Assembly: GCA_947628525.1 (NCBI GenBank)
Contig: CANRAE010000006.1
Span: forward strand, 1 to 32,363
DNA length: 32,363 bases
Direction: 5' to 3'
Source of the DNA: an uncultured Bacilli bacterium
GTDB taxonomy: Bacteria; Bacillota_I; Bacilli_A; RF39; UBA660
In this document: positions 18,034 through 23,820 of the stretch, in pieces
How the letters are laid out: each line of letters starts with the position of its first letter
How positions within the stretch are numbered: the stretch's first letter is position 1
Notes under the pieces: model-generated
What the model was told of the DNA's origin: nothing
The model's database searches: none
Seen by the model: only the letters and a program-made list of their open reading frames with translations
Made by a program: the position numbers and the translations under genes

Positions 18034-19329
18034 ATGAATAAAGAAAAGTTTATTACATCAGCAATTATACTTATGTTAGGTGGCTTTATAACTAAAATAT
18101 TAGGAATGGTTATTAAGATAGTTATGAATAGAATTGTTGGGGTAGATGGTATTGGATTATATATGTTAATCTTCCCTACTTTTTCGCTTTTTACGACTTT
18201 ATCACAGTTAGGCTTTCCAGTAGCTATAAGTAAATTAGTATCTGAGGATAAGCACAATAATAAAAATATAGTTTTTACAGTTGTACCTATATCTTTGATA
18301 ATAAATGTTTTTTTAATGCTCTTAATTATTGTTTTAGCACCTACTTTAGCTAATAATTTATTAAAAGATCCTAGGTGCTATTATCCTATTTTAGCTATTG
18401 GTGTAGTTCTTCCTTTTGATAGTTTATCAAGTATTTTACGAGGATACTTTTTTGGTAAACAAAAAATGATCCCTCATGTTTTATCTAATATTACTGAGCA
18501 AATTATAAGATTAATATTAATTATTATAACTATTCCTAAACTTCTTAATAAAAGCTTAATTTACGCCGTTAGTGGTCTGATATTAGTTAACGTTATAAGT
18601 GAATTTATATCGTTTATCGTTTTATTTTTGCATCTTCCTAAAAAGGCCAAAATAAAGAAAAAAGATATCATCATAGATCCTCTTAATTTAAAAGCTATTC
18701 TTAATATTTCCCTACCTACTACTGGGGGAAGAATCATCGGTTCTATCGGTTATTTTTTAGAACCAATTATCTTAACTTTTGTTTTATTAAAATCAGGTTT
18801 TTCTAATGATTATATTGTAAGAGAATATGGTATTATTAATGGTTACGTTATGCCTTTACTTTTATTACCTTCTTTTTTTACTAATGCTATTTCCCAAGCT
18901 TTACTACCAGTAGTAAGTAAAGCATACGCTAATAATAATTATTCATATATTAAAAGAAAAATAAAACAAGCAATTATGTTTTCTTTAATAATAGGCATTC
19001 CCGTTACTCTTTTTTTTGAACTAATACCTAGTGTACCATTAAAATTAATATATGGAACTAGTGAAGGGATCAATTATATTCGTTTTCTTGCTCCTATTTG
19101 TTTAATACAATATATACAAGCACCTTTATCGTCAAGTCTAGATGCTGTTGGTAAAAGCAAAATAAATATGCATACAACTATAATAGGCATGAGTATAAGA
19201 GCTTTATCATTAATTAGTTTTTCGTTATTTGGTATTGGTATTTGGAGCCTTATATTAGGTATTAGTATTAGTTGTATATATATAACCTTTTATAATTATA
19301 AAAAAGTAAAAGAAATACTTACTATTTAG
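18034..19329 (+). CDS. SpoVB/MATE-type polysaccharide flippase family protein
   Basis: FITSAIILMLGGFITKILGMVIKIVMNRIVGVDGIGLYMLIFPTFSLFTTLSQLGFPVAISKLVSE typical of the SpoVB/Wzx clade; multi-TM. Confidence 0.88.
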   Translation: MNKEKFITSAIILMLGGFITKILGMVIKIVMNRIVGVDGIGLYMLIFPTFSLFTTLSQLGFPVAISKLVSEDKHNNKNIVFTVVPISLIINVFLMLLIIVLAPTLANNLLKDPRCYYPILAIGVVLPFDSLSSILRGYFFGKQKMIPHVLSNITEQIIRLILIIITIPKLLNKSLIYAVSGLILVNVISEFISFIVLFLHLPKKAKIKKKDIIIDPLNLKAILNISLPTTGGRIIGSIGYFLEPIILTFVLLKSGFSNDYIVREYGIINGYVMPLLLLPSFFTNAISQALLPVVSKAYANNNYSYIKRKIKQAIMFSLIIGIPVTLFFELIPSVPLKLIYGTSEGINYIRFLAPICLIQYIQAPLSSSLDAVGKSKINMHTTIIGMSIRALSLISFSLFGIGIWSLILGISISCIYITFYNYKKVKEILTI

Positions 19330-20017
19330 TATTTCTTTTCATATCAATGATTATTTTTCGATCATGATCCGTTATTTTCCTAGATTCTAATATTTTTTGT
19401 AACGTTTTATTATAAGTAAAATTATCTAACTTATTATTGTTAAGATAATTCAAAGTTTTATGACGATATTTACAAAAGCAAATACTTAATAACCAAGCTT
19501 TAGCCATTTGACTATAATAAAAGGTAGATGGATTATTATCAATCAAAGTAAAGATTTTATCAATATGATTATCATCTAAAAAATGATCCATTATCATTAT
19601 ATAGCCGATTCGTTCAATAAACTCTTGATTACTACTAAGATATGAAGTAGCTAAATCAAAATATTTCTCATTTTTAGCTAAACTTTTCATGTTAGCTATA
19701 CATATATCACACGTTGCCCAATTATCTACTTTATGAATGAATTTGTCAAAATACAAATCAAAAAGTCTTTGATCCTTGATATTAGCAATAATTAATCCTT
19801 CAATAATACTTTCTTCAAAATATGTATTTTTCAAATATTTAAGTATTTTTTCGTACGTATTGGCATCCACTTTATTAATAAGTTTTCTTAATATTGGTAT
19901 TTTAACCCCAATAATTTCTTTATTAGTATTAATTATTTTTTGATTGAAAATAGCATATTTTTGATCACTTATAGATTTTAAATATGTTATTAACTCATTA
20001 TAATTATTAAAATTCAT
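19322..20017 (-). CDS. DNA alkylation repair (AlkD-like HEAT repeat) protein; start trimmed to MNFNNYNELI
   Basis: GVKIPILRKLINKVD, VDNWATCDICIANM, ERIGYIMIMDHFLDDNHIDKIF; RBS cctcct (minus AGGAGG) at 20021. Confidence 0.85.
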   Translation of the reverse strand: MNFNNYNELITYLKSISDQKYAIFNQKIINTNKEIIGVKIPILRKLINKVDANTYEKILKYLKNTYFEESIIEGLIIANIKDQRLFDLYFDKFIHKVDNWATCDICIANMKSLAKNEKYFDLATSYLSSNQEFIERIGYIMIMDHFLDDNHIDKIFTLIDNNPSTFYYSQMAKAWLLSICFCKYRHKTLNYLNNNKLDNFTYNKTLQKILESRKITDHDRKIIIDMKRNTK

Positions 20018-20035
20018 AAACCTCCTGTATAATAA

Positions 20036-20057
20036 AAAAAGAGAACATTCTCTTTTT
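20036..20057. terminator. Terminator at the end of the C-D surface-protein operon
   Basis: AAAAAGAGAA-CA-TTCTCTTTTT hairpin flanked by A and T runs. Confidence 0.8.
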
Positions 20058-20066
20058 AATAGTATA

Positions 20067-20603
20067 TCAAGCACAACTTGCAGCTTGTTTATAGTTTGGT
20101 GTAACTGTTATTGTTTGTGATGCTGGTTTAGCAGTAACTCCTGATTTATATTCAACAGAAACTGTAAATGAGCCAGTTCCATTAGTAGTACCACTTTTAG
20201 CTTTAATACAAGTTCCACTACCTCCTGTTACTGTAAAATAATCATTACTTGTTGGACTTACAGAAAACGTTGGTACTGCTGCATGTAATGTACCAGCATT
20301 AACTGTATTAAATGTACAAGTTACTTTGTCTCCTGGTGAAATCATTGTTGCTGTAATAGTCCCCGTTGTATCCGTTGTTGTACCTTCTGTTGTTGGTGTA
20401 CATGTTGCACTTGATGGATGCGCAGAATCTTTAGCCGTTGTAGATGCACAACTACAACTTGATATATATATTGGCCCCCATGTAGAGGAAATTGTACCCG
20501 TTCCGTTTACTGTTAAATTTTGCGAAAATGCTGCATAGGCAACTCCTACGATGATTAACGTTACAGCTAAAACAGAAATCGTAAAACCTTTCATATTCTT
20601 CAT
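20067..20603 (-). CDS. Paralogue D: small secreted/anchored Thr/Ser-rich Cys-containing protein
   Basis: MKNMKGFTISVLAVTLIIVGVAYAAFSQNLTVNGTGTISSTWGPIYISSCSC...; SPGDKVTCTFNTVNAGTL; RBS aaggaga 5' of ATG. Confidence 0.9.
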   Translation of the reverse strand: MKNMKGFTISVLAVTLIIVGVAYAAFSQNLTVNGTGTISSTWGPIYISSCSCASTTAKDSAHPSSATCTPTTEGTTTDTTGTITATMISPGDKVTCTFNTVNAGTLHAAVPTFSVSPTSNDYFTVTGGSGTCIKAKSGTTNGTGSFTVSVEYKSGVTAKPASQTITVTPNYKQAASCA

Positions 20604-20623
20604 AATAAATCTCCTTTCCTAAA

Positions 20624-21139
20624 TTATGCTGCTTGTACCCAAGTCATTGTACATGTAAGTGTTTTGCTCGTTGTTGTAGTTGGTTGACTAGTTATGCTAG
20701 TTAAATATCCAATATTTACTGTCCACTCTTTCTTTCCTCCAACAGCAACTGCTGCATCAGAAGTAGTTGGTCCGCCACTTACACTACTACTAAATGGTGT
20801 TGCAAGAGCATCACCGCATGTGAAAGCTGTACCTACTTTAACAGCAAATCCACTATTATTAGTTGCTGTTATCTTACAAGCTACATTATCCGCTGGCTGA
20901 TGTAAAGTAGCACTAATAGTAATACTAAGCTTGTTAGAAGCGACTGAACAAGTTCCAGTCGGAACGGTTGCTCCTGAAAGGCCAGCTGTACCAGTACAAG
21001 TACATGCATATCCTACATCAATTCCAGCACCTGTTGCTGTAACGGTAACCTTTAAATTAGTACTAAAAGCCGCATATACTATTGCCATAACTGCTAAAGA
21101 TACAACAAGAACTGTCATAACAATTGTTTTTCTTTCCAT
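20624..21139 (-). CDS. Paralogue C: small secreted/anchored Thr/Ser-rich Cys-containing protein, first gene after the poly-G promoter
   Basis: MERKTIVMTVLVVSLAVMAIVYAAFSTNLKVTVTATGAGIDVGYACTCTGTAG...; signal/TM followed by YAAFS. Confidence 0.9.
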   Translation of the reverse strand: MERKTIVMTVLVVSLAVMAIVYAAFSTNLKVTVTATGAGIDVGYACTCTGTAGLSGATVPTGTCSVASNKLSITISATLHQPADNVACKITATNNSGFAVKVGTAFTCGDALATPFSSSVSGGPTTSDAAVAVGGKKEWTVNIGYLTSITSQPTTTTSKTLTCTMTWVQAA

Positions 21140-21174
21140 AATTTTATTTCATCCTTTCCTACCTTATATCAATA

Positions 21175-21204
21175 ATTATAGATCACCCCCCCCCCCTGTG
21201 TCAA
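21175..21204 (-). promoter_or_regulatory. Consensus promoter with an 11-G homopolymer in its 18-bp spacer (candidate phase-variable promoter)
   Basis: Minus strand TTGACA (21204-21199), CA-G11-TGATC spacer, TATAAT (21180-21175), 36 bp upstream of the ATG of paralogue C. Confidence 0.88.
21186..21196 (+). repeat. Homopolymeric C11 tract (G11 on the coding strand)
   Basis: Direct count: gatca-ccccccccccc-tgtg. Confidence 0.97.
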
Positions 21205-21316
21205 CGACATAGGGCTCTATTGGCACATTTTTGTCATAATTTTACGTATGTAAATTATTTATTTAATGCGATGTTTCTCTTTGCCAAATAGCTTTTAACT
21301 TCTCGTTTCTTTTAGC

Positions 21317-21344
21317 AAAAAAAAATAAGTGTAATACTTATTTT
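21317..21344 (-). terminator. Terminator separating the A-B and C-D units
   Basis: Minus strand AAAATAAGT-ATTAC-ACTTATTTT followed by TTTTT. Confidence 0.85.
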
Positions 21345-21354
21345 AGATAGAAAA

Positions 21355-21942
21355 TTATTGAGTAGCCTTAGTTGTAGTAGTAAAAGTACATGTACCAGCA
21401 GCAGTAGTTGCGGTAGAACTATATGTAAATTTGAAAGTAAAGATAGCATAATTACCATGAGTTACTGTTAATGTTCCCACTGTTACGCCTGATGCAGTTA
21501 TGGTAACTGGTGATGCAGGTACTTTGGTTCCAGCTGTTGTTCCTGTATATGGAGTACCTTGGGCAGTAGCTGTTACATTGGCACAAGCTGTTGACGTTGA
21601 TGATGTCGTATAAAGTTTAACGCCAGTCATAGCTACCTTAGCATCAAGCGTACCTGAATTTTTAACTCTTACATCACATGTGACAACATCGCCAGGTGAA
21701 GCCCACTTAATTGTTGTCGAAAAAGTAGTTGTTGTTTTAGAGACACTAGCAACAGTGGCTAAGCTAGAATCTTTACTTGTAACACTACAACTTGAATTAG
21801 TGGTATCTATTTCTACTTTCCATGTCGAGGCAATATTACCTGTACCGTTAACTGTTAAATTTTGGGAAAAAGCGGCATAAGATATTCCTAATAAACAAAC
21901 CATCCCTAAAAATACTACTAAAATTATTTTATTATTTTTCAT
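21355..21942 (-). CDS. Paralogue B: small secreted/anchored Thr/Ser-rich protein; start trimmed to MKNNKIILVV
   Basis: MKNNKIILVVFLGMVCLLGISYAAFSQNLTVNGTGNIASTWKVEIDTTNSSCSV...SPGDVVTCDVRVKNSGTLDAKVAMTGV. Confidence 0.9.
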   Translation of the reverse strand: MKNNKIILVVFLGMVCLLGISYAAFSQNLTVNGTGNIASTWKVEIDTTNSSCSVTSKDSSLATVASVSKTTTTFSTTIKWASPGDVVTCDVRVKNSGTLDAKVAMTGVKLYTTSSTSTACANVTATAQGTPYTGTTAGTKVPASPVTITASGVTVGTLTVTHGNYAIFTFKFTYSSTATTAAGTCTFTTTTKATQ

Positions 21943-21959
21943 CAACTCTTCACCTATCC

Positions 21960-22487
21960 TTAAATATCCTGTGTATATGGTAAAGTACAAGTAATTTCAG
22001 CACTAGTTGTTGTCGGTTGTTGTGTAATACTAGATGAATAAGTCACACCAATTGTCAATTCAGTGTCACCAGTTGCACCAGCAGCTAATTTAGACTTCTT
22101 CCATGAAACTGTATAATACATAGGTTTATCTAAACTAGTGCTACTTTCAGCATCAGTAATACCCCCTTTTATTGTACAATTTGGGCTGGTCGCATTGGGT
22201 TTAATTTTTAAGTTACCATCATTGATAACATTAAAACTGCAGGATGCTACGTTACCAGATAACTTTAAATCAGCAGTCATTGATGCTGTATTACTCTTGG
22301 TAGTTCCCGCTGGGGTACAAGTAGCATTGCCAGTTACACAAACACAACCAGTAATTTTAACGCTAAAATTACCTAATTGCTGGGTTGTTCCATTAATAGA
22401 AAAACTTTGTTGGAATGCTGCATACGCAATAGATATAACAAAAACCATAACACATAAAGAAAAAATTAACATCTTTTTTTTATTCAT
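21960..22487 (-). CDS. Paralogue A: small secreted/anchored Cys-containing protein
   Basis: MNKKKMLIFSLCVMVFVISIAYAAFQQSFSINGTTQQLGNFSVKITGCVCVTGNATCTPAGT...VASCSFNVINDGNLKIKP. Confidence 0.9.
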   Translation of the reverse strand: MNKKKMLIFSLCVMVFVISIAYAAFQQSFSINGTTQQLGNFSVKITGCVCVTGNATCTPAGTTKSNTASMTADLKLSGNVASCSFNVINDGNLKIKPNATSPNCTIKGGITDAESSTSLDKPMYYTVSWKKSKLAAGATGDTELTIGVTYSSSITQQPTTTSAEITCTLPYTQDI

Positions 22488-22518
22488 TATCTACACCCTC
22501 TTAATATCATTCAATTTA

Positions 22519-22547
22519 ATTATACTTCCCTTTTTTTATTCAGTCAA
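22519..22547 (-). promoter_or_regulatory. Promoter of the A-B unit
   Basis: Minus strand TTGACT (22547-22542)-N17-TATAAT (22524-22519); the -35 overlaps the mtaB stop codon region. Confidence 0.75.
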
Positions 22548-23820
22548 TTTTTTTTATCAAAATACCTATACAATATGGATATTCTATTTGTTCTATAACA
22601 ACCTTAACAAATTGATTAGATATTAATTTTTGATTAATCTTAACTTGTAAATAATTGGTTGTATGACCAATACTATAATCATCTGTTACTTTCTCTATAA
22701 GTACTTCAACTTCTCTATTTAAAAAACTATTCATATAATTTATCTCTAATTGCCTAGATAATTGTAATAAAGTCTTTGTACGTTCCTTTTTAATAATATC
22801 ATCCACTTGGGGCATAGCACTAGATTTAGTACCTTTTCTTTTAGAATATGGAAAGACATGTAATTTACTAAAACCAATATCTTTTATCTCTTGTAAACTT
22901 TGATTAAAAGCATCATCATCTTCATAAGGATGTCCTACAATTATATCCGTAGTAATAGATACATCTTTTTTTATTTCTTTAATGCGTTTTATTTTTTCTT
23001 TGAAATATTCCAAATTATATTTACGATTCATTACTTTTAATACTTTATCATTGGCAGCTTGAATAGGTATATGTAAATGATTTACAATTATATCGTTTTG
23101 ACTAATAACTTCTAAGATATCATCATTTAATTCGGTTACTTCGATCGACGATATACGTAATCTTTTTAAATCTTTTATTTTAACTAATTCTTTTAATAAA
23201 TGACATAAATTAGTATTAATATCTGTTCCATAATTACCAGTATGAATGCCAGTTAATACAATTTCATGAAAGCCATGCGATACAAGATCATTTACTTCTT
23301 TAATAACTGTATTAAAATCTTTTGATCGACATTTACCTCTTACATAGGGAATAATACAATAACTACAAAAATTTTCACATCCATCTTGAATTTTTACAAA
23401 AGCTCTCGTTCTTGATACAAAGTGATCAATATACATATCTTCGAATTTATTATCTAAATTATCGACTTTATTAATAGTTTTTTTATCTTGTAAATACTTT
23501 TGAATAATCGTTACAATTTTACTTTTATCCTTATTACCTAATATAATATCAATATCTTTTGGTAAATTACTAGGTTTTGCTTGAATATAACATCCCAAAG
23601 CTATAACAATAGCACTTGGATTACGTCTTTTAGCTTGGGATATCATTTTTCTACTTTTAACATCGCTAGCATTAGTTACGGTACAAGTATTAATTATATA
23701 TATATCACAAATATCTGTAAAATTACCAATTTCATAGTTATTCTTTTGTAATTCATTAATGATATATTCACTTTCATAGGTATTTACTTTACAACCTAAG
23801 GTACATATTCCAACTTTCAT
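22540..23820 (-). CDS. mtaB: tRNA (N6-L-threonylcarbamoyladenosine(37)-C2)-methylthiotransferase MtaB
   Basis: MKVGICTLGCKVNTYESEYI, CENFCSYCIIPYVRGKCRS radical SAM CxxxCxxC, LTGIHTGNYG. Confidence 0.95.
   Translation of the reverse strand: MKVGICTLGCKVNTYESEYIINELQKNNYEIGNFTDICDIYIINTCTVTNASDVKSRKMISQAKRRNPSAIVIALGCYIQAKPSNLPKDIDIILGNKDKSKIVTIIQKYLQDKKTINKVDNLDNKFEDMYIDHFVSRTRAFVKIQDGCENFCSYCIIPYVRGKCRSKDFNTVIKEVNDLVSHGFHEIVLTGIHTGNYGTDINTNLCHLLKELVKIKDLKRLRISSIEVTELNDDILEVISQNDIIVNHLHIPIQAANDKVLKVMNRKYNLEYFKEKIKRIKEIKKDVSITTDIIVGHPYEDDDAFNQSLQEIKDIGFSKLHVFPYSKRKGTKSSAMPQVDDIIKKERTKTLLQLSRQLEINYMNSFLNREVEVLIEKVTDDYSIGHTTNYLQVKINQKLISNQFVKVVIEQIEYPYCIGILIKKID

Follow-up and report, generated by a model that had tools for sequence, protein, structure and literature searches.

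The window analyzed here, a stretch of 32,363 nucleotides, corresponds to contig C6 in the 1.26-Mb assembly of an uncultured Bacilli bacterium. Its minus strand carries two consecutive units of paralogous genes. The upstream unit comprises gene A (21960..22487) and gene B (21355..21948), the latter with a possible alternative TTG start at 21990. In the consensus scan, this unit was preceded by an ordinary promoter, TTGACT-17-TATAAT (22519..22547), which has no homopolymer tract and provides a fixed-spacer comparison within the same window. Gene B, which is not located behind a tract, is followed by a weak terminator-like fold, an A+T-only hairpin with a T-run (21317..21344, minus strand), that falls short of the G+C requirement in the consensus scan and probably divides unit A-B from unit C-D. 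The latter begins with gene C (20624..21139, 171 aa), a predicted surface protein with a signal helix (VYAAFS) and a predicted beta-sandwich, followed by its paralogue gene D (20067..20603, 178 aa), the second gene of a duplicated operon. The end of gene D is overlapped by an AlkD-like DNA alkylation repair gene (19322..20074; PF08713, E=4.9e-12), and we infer that this gene may be co-transcribed with C and D from the candidate switch described below. Profile searches gave no family match for gene C, its predicted structure had no confident match in PDB, and no close homologue was found in named genomes. Assignment of gene D to camelysin (Peptidase_M73; score 15.5, cut-off 22.5) and of gene B to the BsaA family (TIGR04090; 19.3 bits, cut-off 60) was rejected. 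Taken together, the VYAAFS signal of gene C and these weak scores of B and D amount to no more than a resemblance to SipW-dependent/camelysin (TasA, BsaA) proteins.

Upstream of gene C, both sequence reading and the consensus scan identified perfect -35 (TTGACA, 21199..21204) and -10 (TATAAT, 21175..21180) boxes, separated by an 18-bp spacer (21181-21198) consisting of CA-G11-TGATC. The minus strand from 21204 to 21175 reads TTGACACAGGGGGGGGGGGTGATCTATAAT, which agrees exactly with the boxes and the G11 spacer reported in a preliminary description of this DNA. This promoter was the sole 12/12 match to the sigma-70 consensus within 19300-22700. The G11 tract itself occupies 21186..21196, and the C-run seen on the plus strand means that the downstream genes have a run of G on their coding strand. 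A likely ribosome binding site, AGGAAAGGA, was read from the sequence at 21152..21160 (minus strand), and the start codon of gene C (21139) is 35 nt downstream of the -10 box. No Rfam element reached the gathering score in the Rfam scan. The preliminary description had also considered the tract to be improbable by chance and without a comparable G/C run in the window, and both statements were borne out: approximately 1e-4 G/C runs of 11 nt or longer are expected per window and 0.004 per genome, and no other G/C run in the window exceeds 6 nt.

Such tracts are repeated in the source genome. We found 18 G-runs of at least 8 nt in the 1.26-Mb genome, compared with about 1 expected. Fifteen of these lead into TATAAT, in two the contig stops after TA, and the last, also at a contig end, has the usual upstream motif and no TATAAT. 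The 15 include a G8 tract on contig C73 for which no -35 box was present at working distance. The commonest form of these promoters in the genome is TTGCCAAAACCGTA-Gn-TATAAT, often located behind a terminator-like hairpin and T-run. Nine copies sharing the identical 14-nt flank TTGCCAAAACCGTA were observed to have tracts of different lengths (n = 9, 10, 11, 11, 11, 11, 12, 12 and 13). The window copy and one copy on contig C10 represent a second form, in which TTGACA is combined with a TGATC or TGAGC linker. The C10 copy stands at the head of a diverged duplicate of the entire C-D operon. Homology between the two starts at the -35 box, the DNA upstream of it in the C10 paralogue is unrelated to that in the window, and the ribosome binding site is conserved. 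At the same position, the C10 paralogue has G10 and a 17-bp spacer, compared with G11 and 18 bp in the window. It is likely that the source genome holds at least 15 such switches. The gene C family itself had 19 matches in this genome (on C2, C10, C20, C42 and other contigs), of which few were behind a tract, and thus switched and unswitched paralogues coexist. Within the genus, the nearest homologues of gene C outside the source genome were 36-39% identical, and most of the genus homologues had no tract, with promoters that were ordinary or unclear.

G8-TATAAT promoters were present in all five of the five genomes of the genus, with 13 in the source genome and 15, 2, 29 and 6 in the others. 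At the family level, 57 of 294 genomes matched G8-N0-6-TATAAT, some with dozens of raw matches; the reversed pattern was nearly absent from the 294 genomes, which indicates that the arrangement is directional. At the class level, a sample yielded only 10 matching genomes besides the source, with few copies each. A cross-phylum scan of one genome per species, whose results are a lower bound and give no frequencies, detected the TTGACA form, among the matches listed, in metagenome-assembled genomes of Bacilli, Clostridia, Saccharibacteria, Selenomonadaceae and Spirochaetes, as well as in cultured isolates, for example Streptobacillus notomytis. At least 21 TTGACA-N-Gn-TATAAT promoters, mostly with 17-19 bp spacers, were seen in S. 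notomytis AHL 370-1 (G451; loci L160 and L235), and no report of phase variation in this species was found in the openly licensed literature. A non-pathogenic isolate, Hydrogenoanaerobacterium saccharovorans An564, had at least 7 matches. Poly-C replaced poly-G in only 2 of 18 genomes, and the arrangement is thus strand biased. In G188 and G118, a few promoters are of this poly-C type; those of G188 share the linker GTTTATAAT. A separate origin of the G188 promoters is possible. The patchy distribution suggests repeated gain or loss. Among the fetched loci, we found 11 pairs with near-identical flanks, 5 of which differed in n; most were paralogues within a genome, not strains. Tract length was nearly constant in G146 (n=9 in 9 of 10 listed copies) and likewise in G327.

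Contig ends within approximately 70 nt of G-tract promoters were numerous in the source genome (G000) and in G001, G003, G146 and G267. Repeats of these promoters probably break short-read assemblies and thereby hide the downstream genes.

The first genes behind these promoters were strongly biased towards secreted-like products. In the family, 44 of 57 non-redundant first genes were secreted-like, compared with 35 of 156 background genes (p=4e-13), and in the cross-phylum set the proportions were 63 of 100 and 61 of 478 (p=3e-24). Here, secreted-like was defined by a simple rule of N-terminal hydrophobicity and not by a trained signal-peptide predictor, and the background consisted of other genes on the same fetched stretches, not of whole genomes. 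Within the limits of prediction, this bias upholds the earlier claim that surface proteins are the targets downstream. Family scans of the targets identified Ig-like and choice-of-anchor domains, Listeria-Bacteroides repeats, type IV prepilins and PARCEL surface lipoproteins, together with dockerin and lectin domains and polysaccharide-synthesis transferases. Type IV prepilin-like genes (KGFTLVELLAVIVILAVI) were located behind G-tract promoters at L077, L097, L102, L258, L274 and L319. Such switching may therefore extend to pili elsewhere in the family.

We also analyzed the distribution of spacer lengths. In 1.15 Mb of fetched DNA, ordinary TTGACA/TATAAT pairs peaked at 17 bp (6, 16 and 5 pairs at 16, 17 and 18 bp, respectively); the G-tract promoters in the same DNA numbered 23, 5, 35, 48 and 16 at 16, 17, 18, 19 and 20 bp. 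Family totals formed a single peak at 19 bp (3, 25, 52 and 16 promoters at 17, 18, 19 and 20 bp), and other genomes had a second group at 15-16 bp. Across several sets, partly pattern-selected, 14 of 225 G-tract promoters had a 17-bp spacing. The dip at 17 bp was first spotted in a pattern-selected set and then re-tested. By re-pairing of tracts and flanks, 2 family promoters were seen at 17 bp compared with 6.7 expected (p=0.018); with the family set collapsed by genome and flank length, totals of 18-20 bp exceeded the re-pairing expectation (p=0.006). In the family, tracts were shorter where the rest of the spacer was longer (rho -0.57 over promoters; rho -0.27, p=0.09, when collapsed by genome and flank length). 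Such compensation was not seen in the Clostridia-type set, in which the dip by re-pairing was not significant (4 seen, 6.1 expected, p=0.21) and a genome bootstrap gave a ratio of 17 bp to the mean of 16 and 18 bp of 0.47 (0.17-0.85). No clear dip was found in Streptobacillus, where 4 of 21 promoters were at 17 bp. Tract lengths from short-read assemblies are uncertain by a base or more. Avoidance of 17 bp among G-tract promoters is therefore no more than suggestive. The two possible readings are that the alleles captured in assembled genomes are mainly OFF or weak, or that the optimal length of a G-rich spacer is closer to 18-19 bp.

In our view, the G11 promoter is probably a slipped-strand transcriptional phase-variation switch of the porA/fetA type and one copy of a multi-locus system, with slippage and length-dependent transcription being inferred. 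Slippage of the tract during DNA copying would shift the distance between the -35 and -10 boxes by 1 bp at a time, the changed spacing would turn the two predicted surface-protein genes C and D up or down, and independent slippage at many loci would make the set of surface proteins differ from cell to cell. The ON state is inferred to be at or near 17 bp. Poly-G spacer promoters of tp0126 in Treponema pallidum and porA in Neisseria meningitidis work best at 17 nt (PMC7864442), which would place G11 one step off the optimum and the C10 paralogue at the optimum. The preliminary description had proposed the same 17-bp optimum, with G10 as the stronger allele; this part is in line with published examples, but in assemblies the majority of G-tract promoters have spacers of other lengths than 17 bp. 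It had further likened the layout to porA and fetA, and here the observed anatomy agreed: a homopolymer lies between the -35 and -10 boxes, its length differs among like promoters, and the predicted targets are surface or secreted proteins. Support for this reading also comes from the many tracts in the source genome, the duplicated operon with G10, and the directionality and tract-flank compensation in the family. Three observations weigh against reading the promoter as a switch, namely the scarcity of 17-bp G-tract promoters, which needs explaining, the near-constant tract length in some genomes such as G146, and the lack of tract-flank compensation in the Clostridia-type set.

Alternatively, the tract could be a fixed structural element, that is, a constant G-tract which forms stiff A-like DNA or is part of a binding site with the ACCGTA motif, works best at 18-19 bp and has been selected for its length without any switching. 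The single family peak at 19 bp, the near-constant tracts of G146 and G327 and the conservation of the tract-adjoining motif within a genome are all consistent with this explanation. However, copies with identical flanks in the source genome range from 9 to 13, other genomes have the second group at 15-16 bp, the optimum of published poly-G spacers is 17 nt (PMC7864442), and G-runs of such length are known mutation hot spots (PMC5953494). We consider a fixed element unlikely, without dismissing it. There is very little room for the view that the promoter is ordinary and constitutive and that its G-run arose by chance without a regulatory role: the boxes are perfect and 18 bp is inside the working range, but hardly any run of this length is expected genome-wide, whereas almost all of the 18 runs of at least 8 nt are in promoter spacers, and secreted-protein genes are strongly preferred downstream.

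G-runs may also be produced by two-color sequencing chemistry or by misassembly at repeated promoters, and many of the tracts are indeed less than 70 nt from contig ends. Variable-length repeats would, however, themselves cause contigs to end at tracts. Contig-internal tracts, including that of the window, have unique sequence on both sides and boxes at a defined spacing, the architecture recurs across many independent assemblies and cultured isolates, and the coding strand carries G and not C, all of which make an artefact highly improbable. Finally, the operon might be switched by DNA inversion and not by slippage. One pair of 16-nt, A+T-rich arms with 81% complementarity (21169-21184 and 21346-21361) could be cited for an invertible promoter; yet these arms are imperfect and of low complexity, one of them overlaps the -10 box, and the DNA upstream of the -35 box in the C10 paralogue is unrelated, which leaves inversion with almost no support.

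If slipped-strand switching is accepted, a broader hypothesis can be considered, although only tentatively, and it may well prove wrong: host-associated, mostly uncultured bacteria of several phyla would repeatedly expand poly-G switches to dozens per genome, with the common allele tuned 1-2 bp off a 17-bp optimum, which would result in default-OFF loci, rare ON cells and a sparse combinatorial repertoire of surface proteins in gut commensals. Random switching of multiple genes is known mostly from pathogens, and the present case is a candidate system in an uncultured gut bacterium. With at least 15 candidate switches in one small genome and 29 G8-TATAAT promoters in a relative, switching of this kind is testable from existing metagenome reads, and the spacer-length distribution also provides a quantitative prediction of the dominant alleles. 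Searches of the openly licensed literature found no account of promoters like these, either in gut Bacilli or in Streptobacillus.

In concept, the nearest known system is vlp of Mycoplasma hyorhinis, in which the -35 and -10 boxes upstream of several paralogous surface-protein genes are separated by a poly-A spacer. There too, a small genome has a family of promoters in multiple copies, but the tract is poly-A and not poly-G, and the targets are lipoproteins. In porA, fetA and tp0126, poly-G or poly-C spacers control transcription via spacing (PMC5320596, PMC7864442); for the porA and fetA switches, PMC7864442 and PMC5320596 cite van der Ende 1995 and Carson 2000. The Neisseria promoters resemble those described here in having a G or C homopolymer between the -35 and -10 boxes, whose length alters the spacing, and in their surface-protein targets. 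However, only three transcriptional phase-variable genes have been reported in N. gonorrhoeae, where most switches are frameshifts in coding sequences (PMC5320596), whereas nearly all tracts found here are borne by promoters that are copies of one type, in an uncultured Gram-positive-related lineage, with 13 to 29 G8-TATAAT promoters in the better-covered genomes of the source genus. Similarly, tp0126 and tpr of T. pallidum have promoter poly-G tracts, that of tp0126 between the -35 and -10 boxes and best at 17 nt (PMC7864442), but these are a handful of loci in one pathogen, with other sigma-70 boxes and outer-membrane targets. Gut Bacteroidales also have many promoter switches per genome that control surface structures (PhaseFinder; PMC11868660), but these depend on recombinase-mediated inversion between inverted repeats, which were not convincingly present at the window promoter. 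The mechanism is thus known, and on testable features our finding belongs with the porA/fetA kind, with length variation within a population and expression that follows length both being inferred. Within the openly licensed literature, the novelty appears to lie in the scale, in the copy-type promoters and in the hosts being uncultured gut bacteria.
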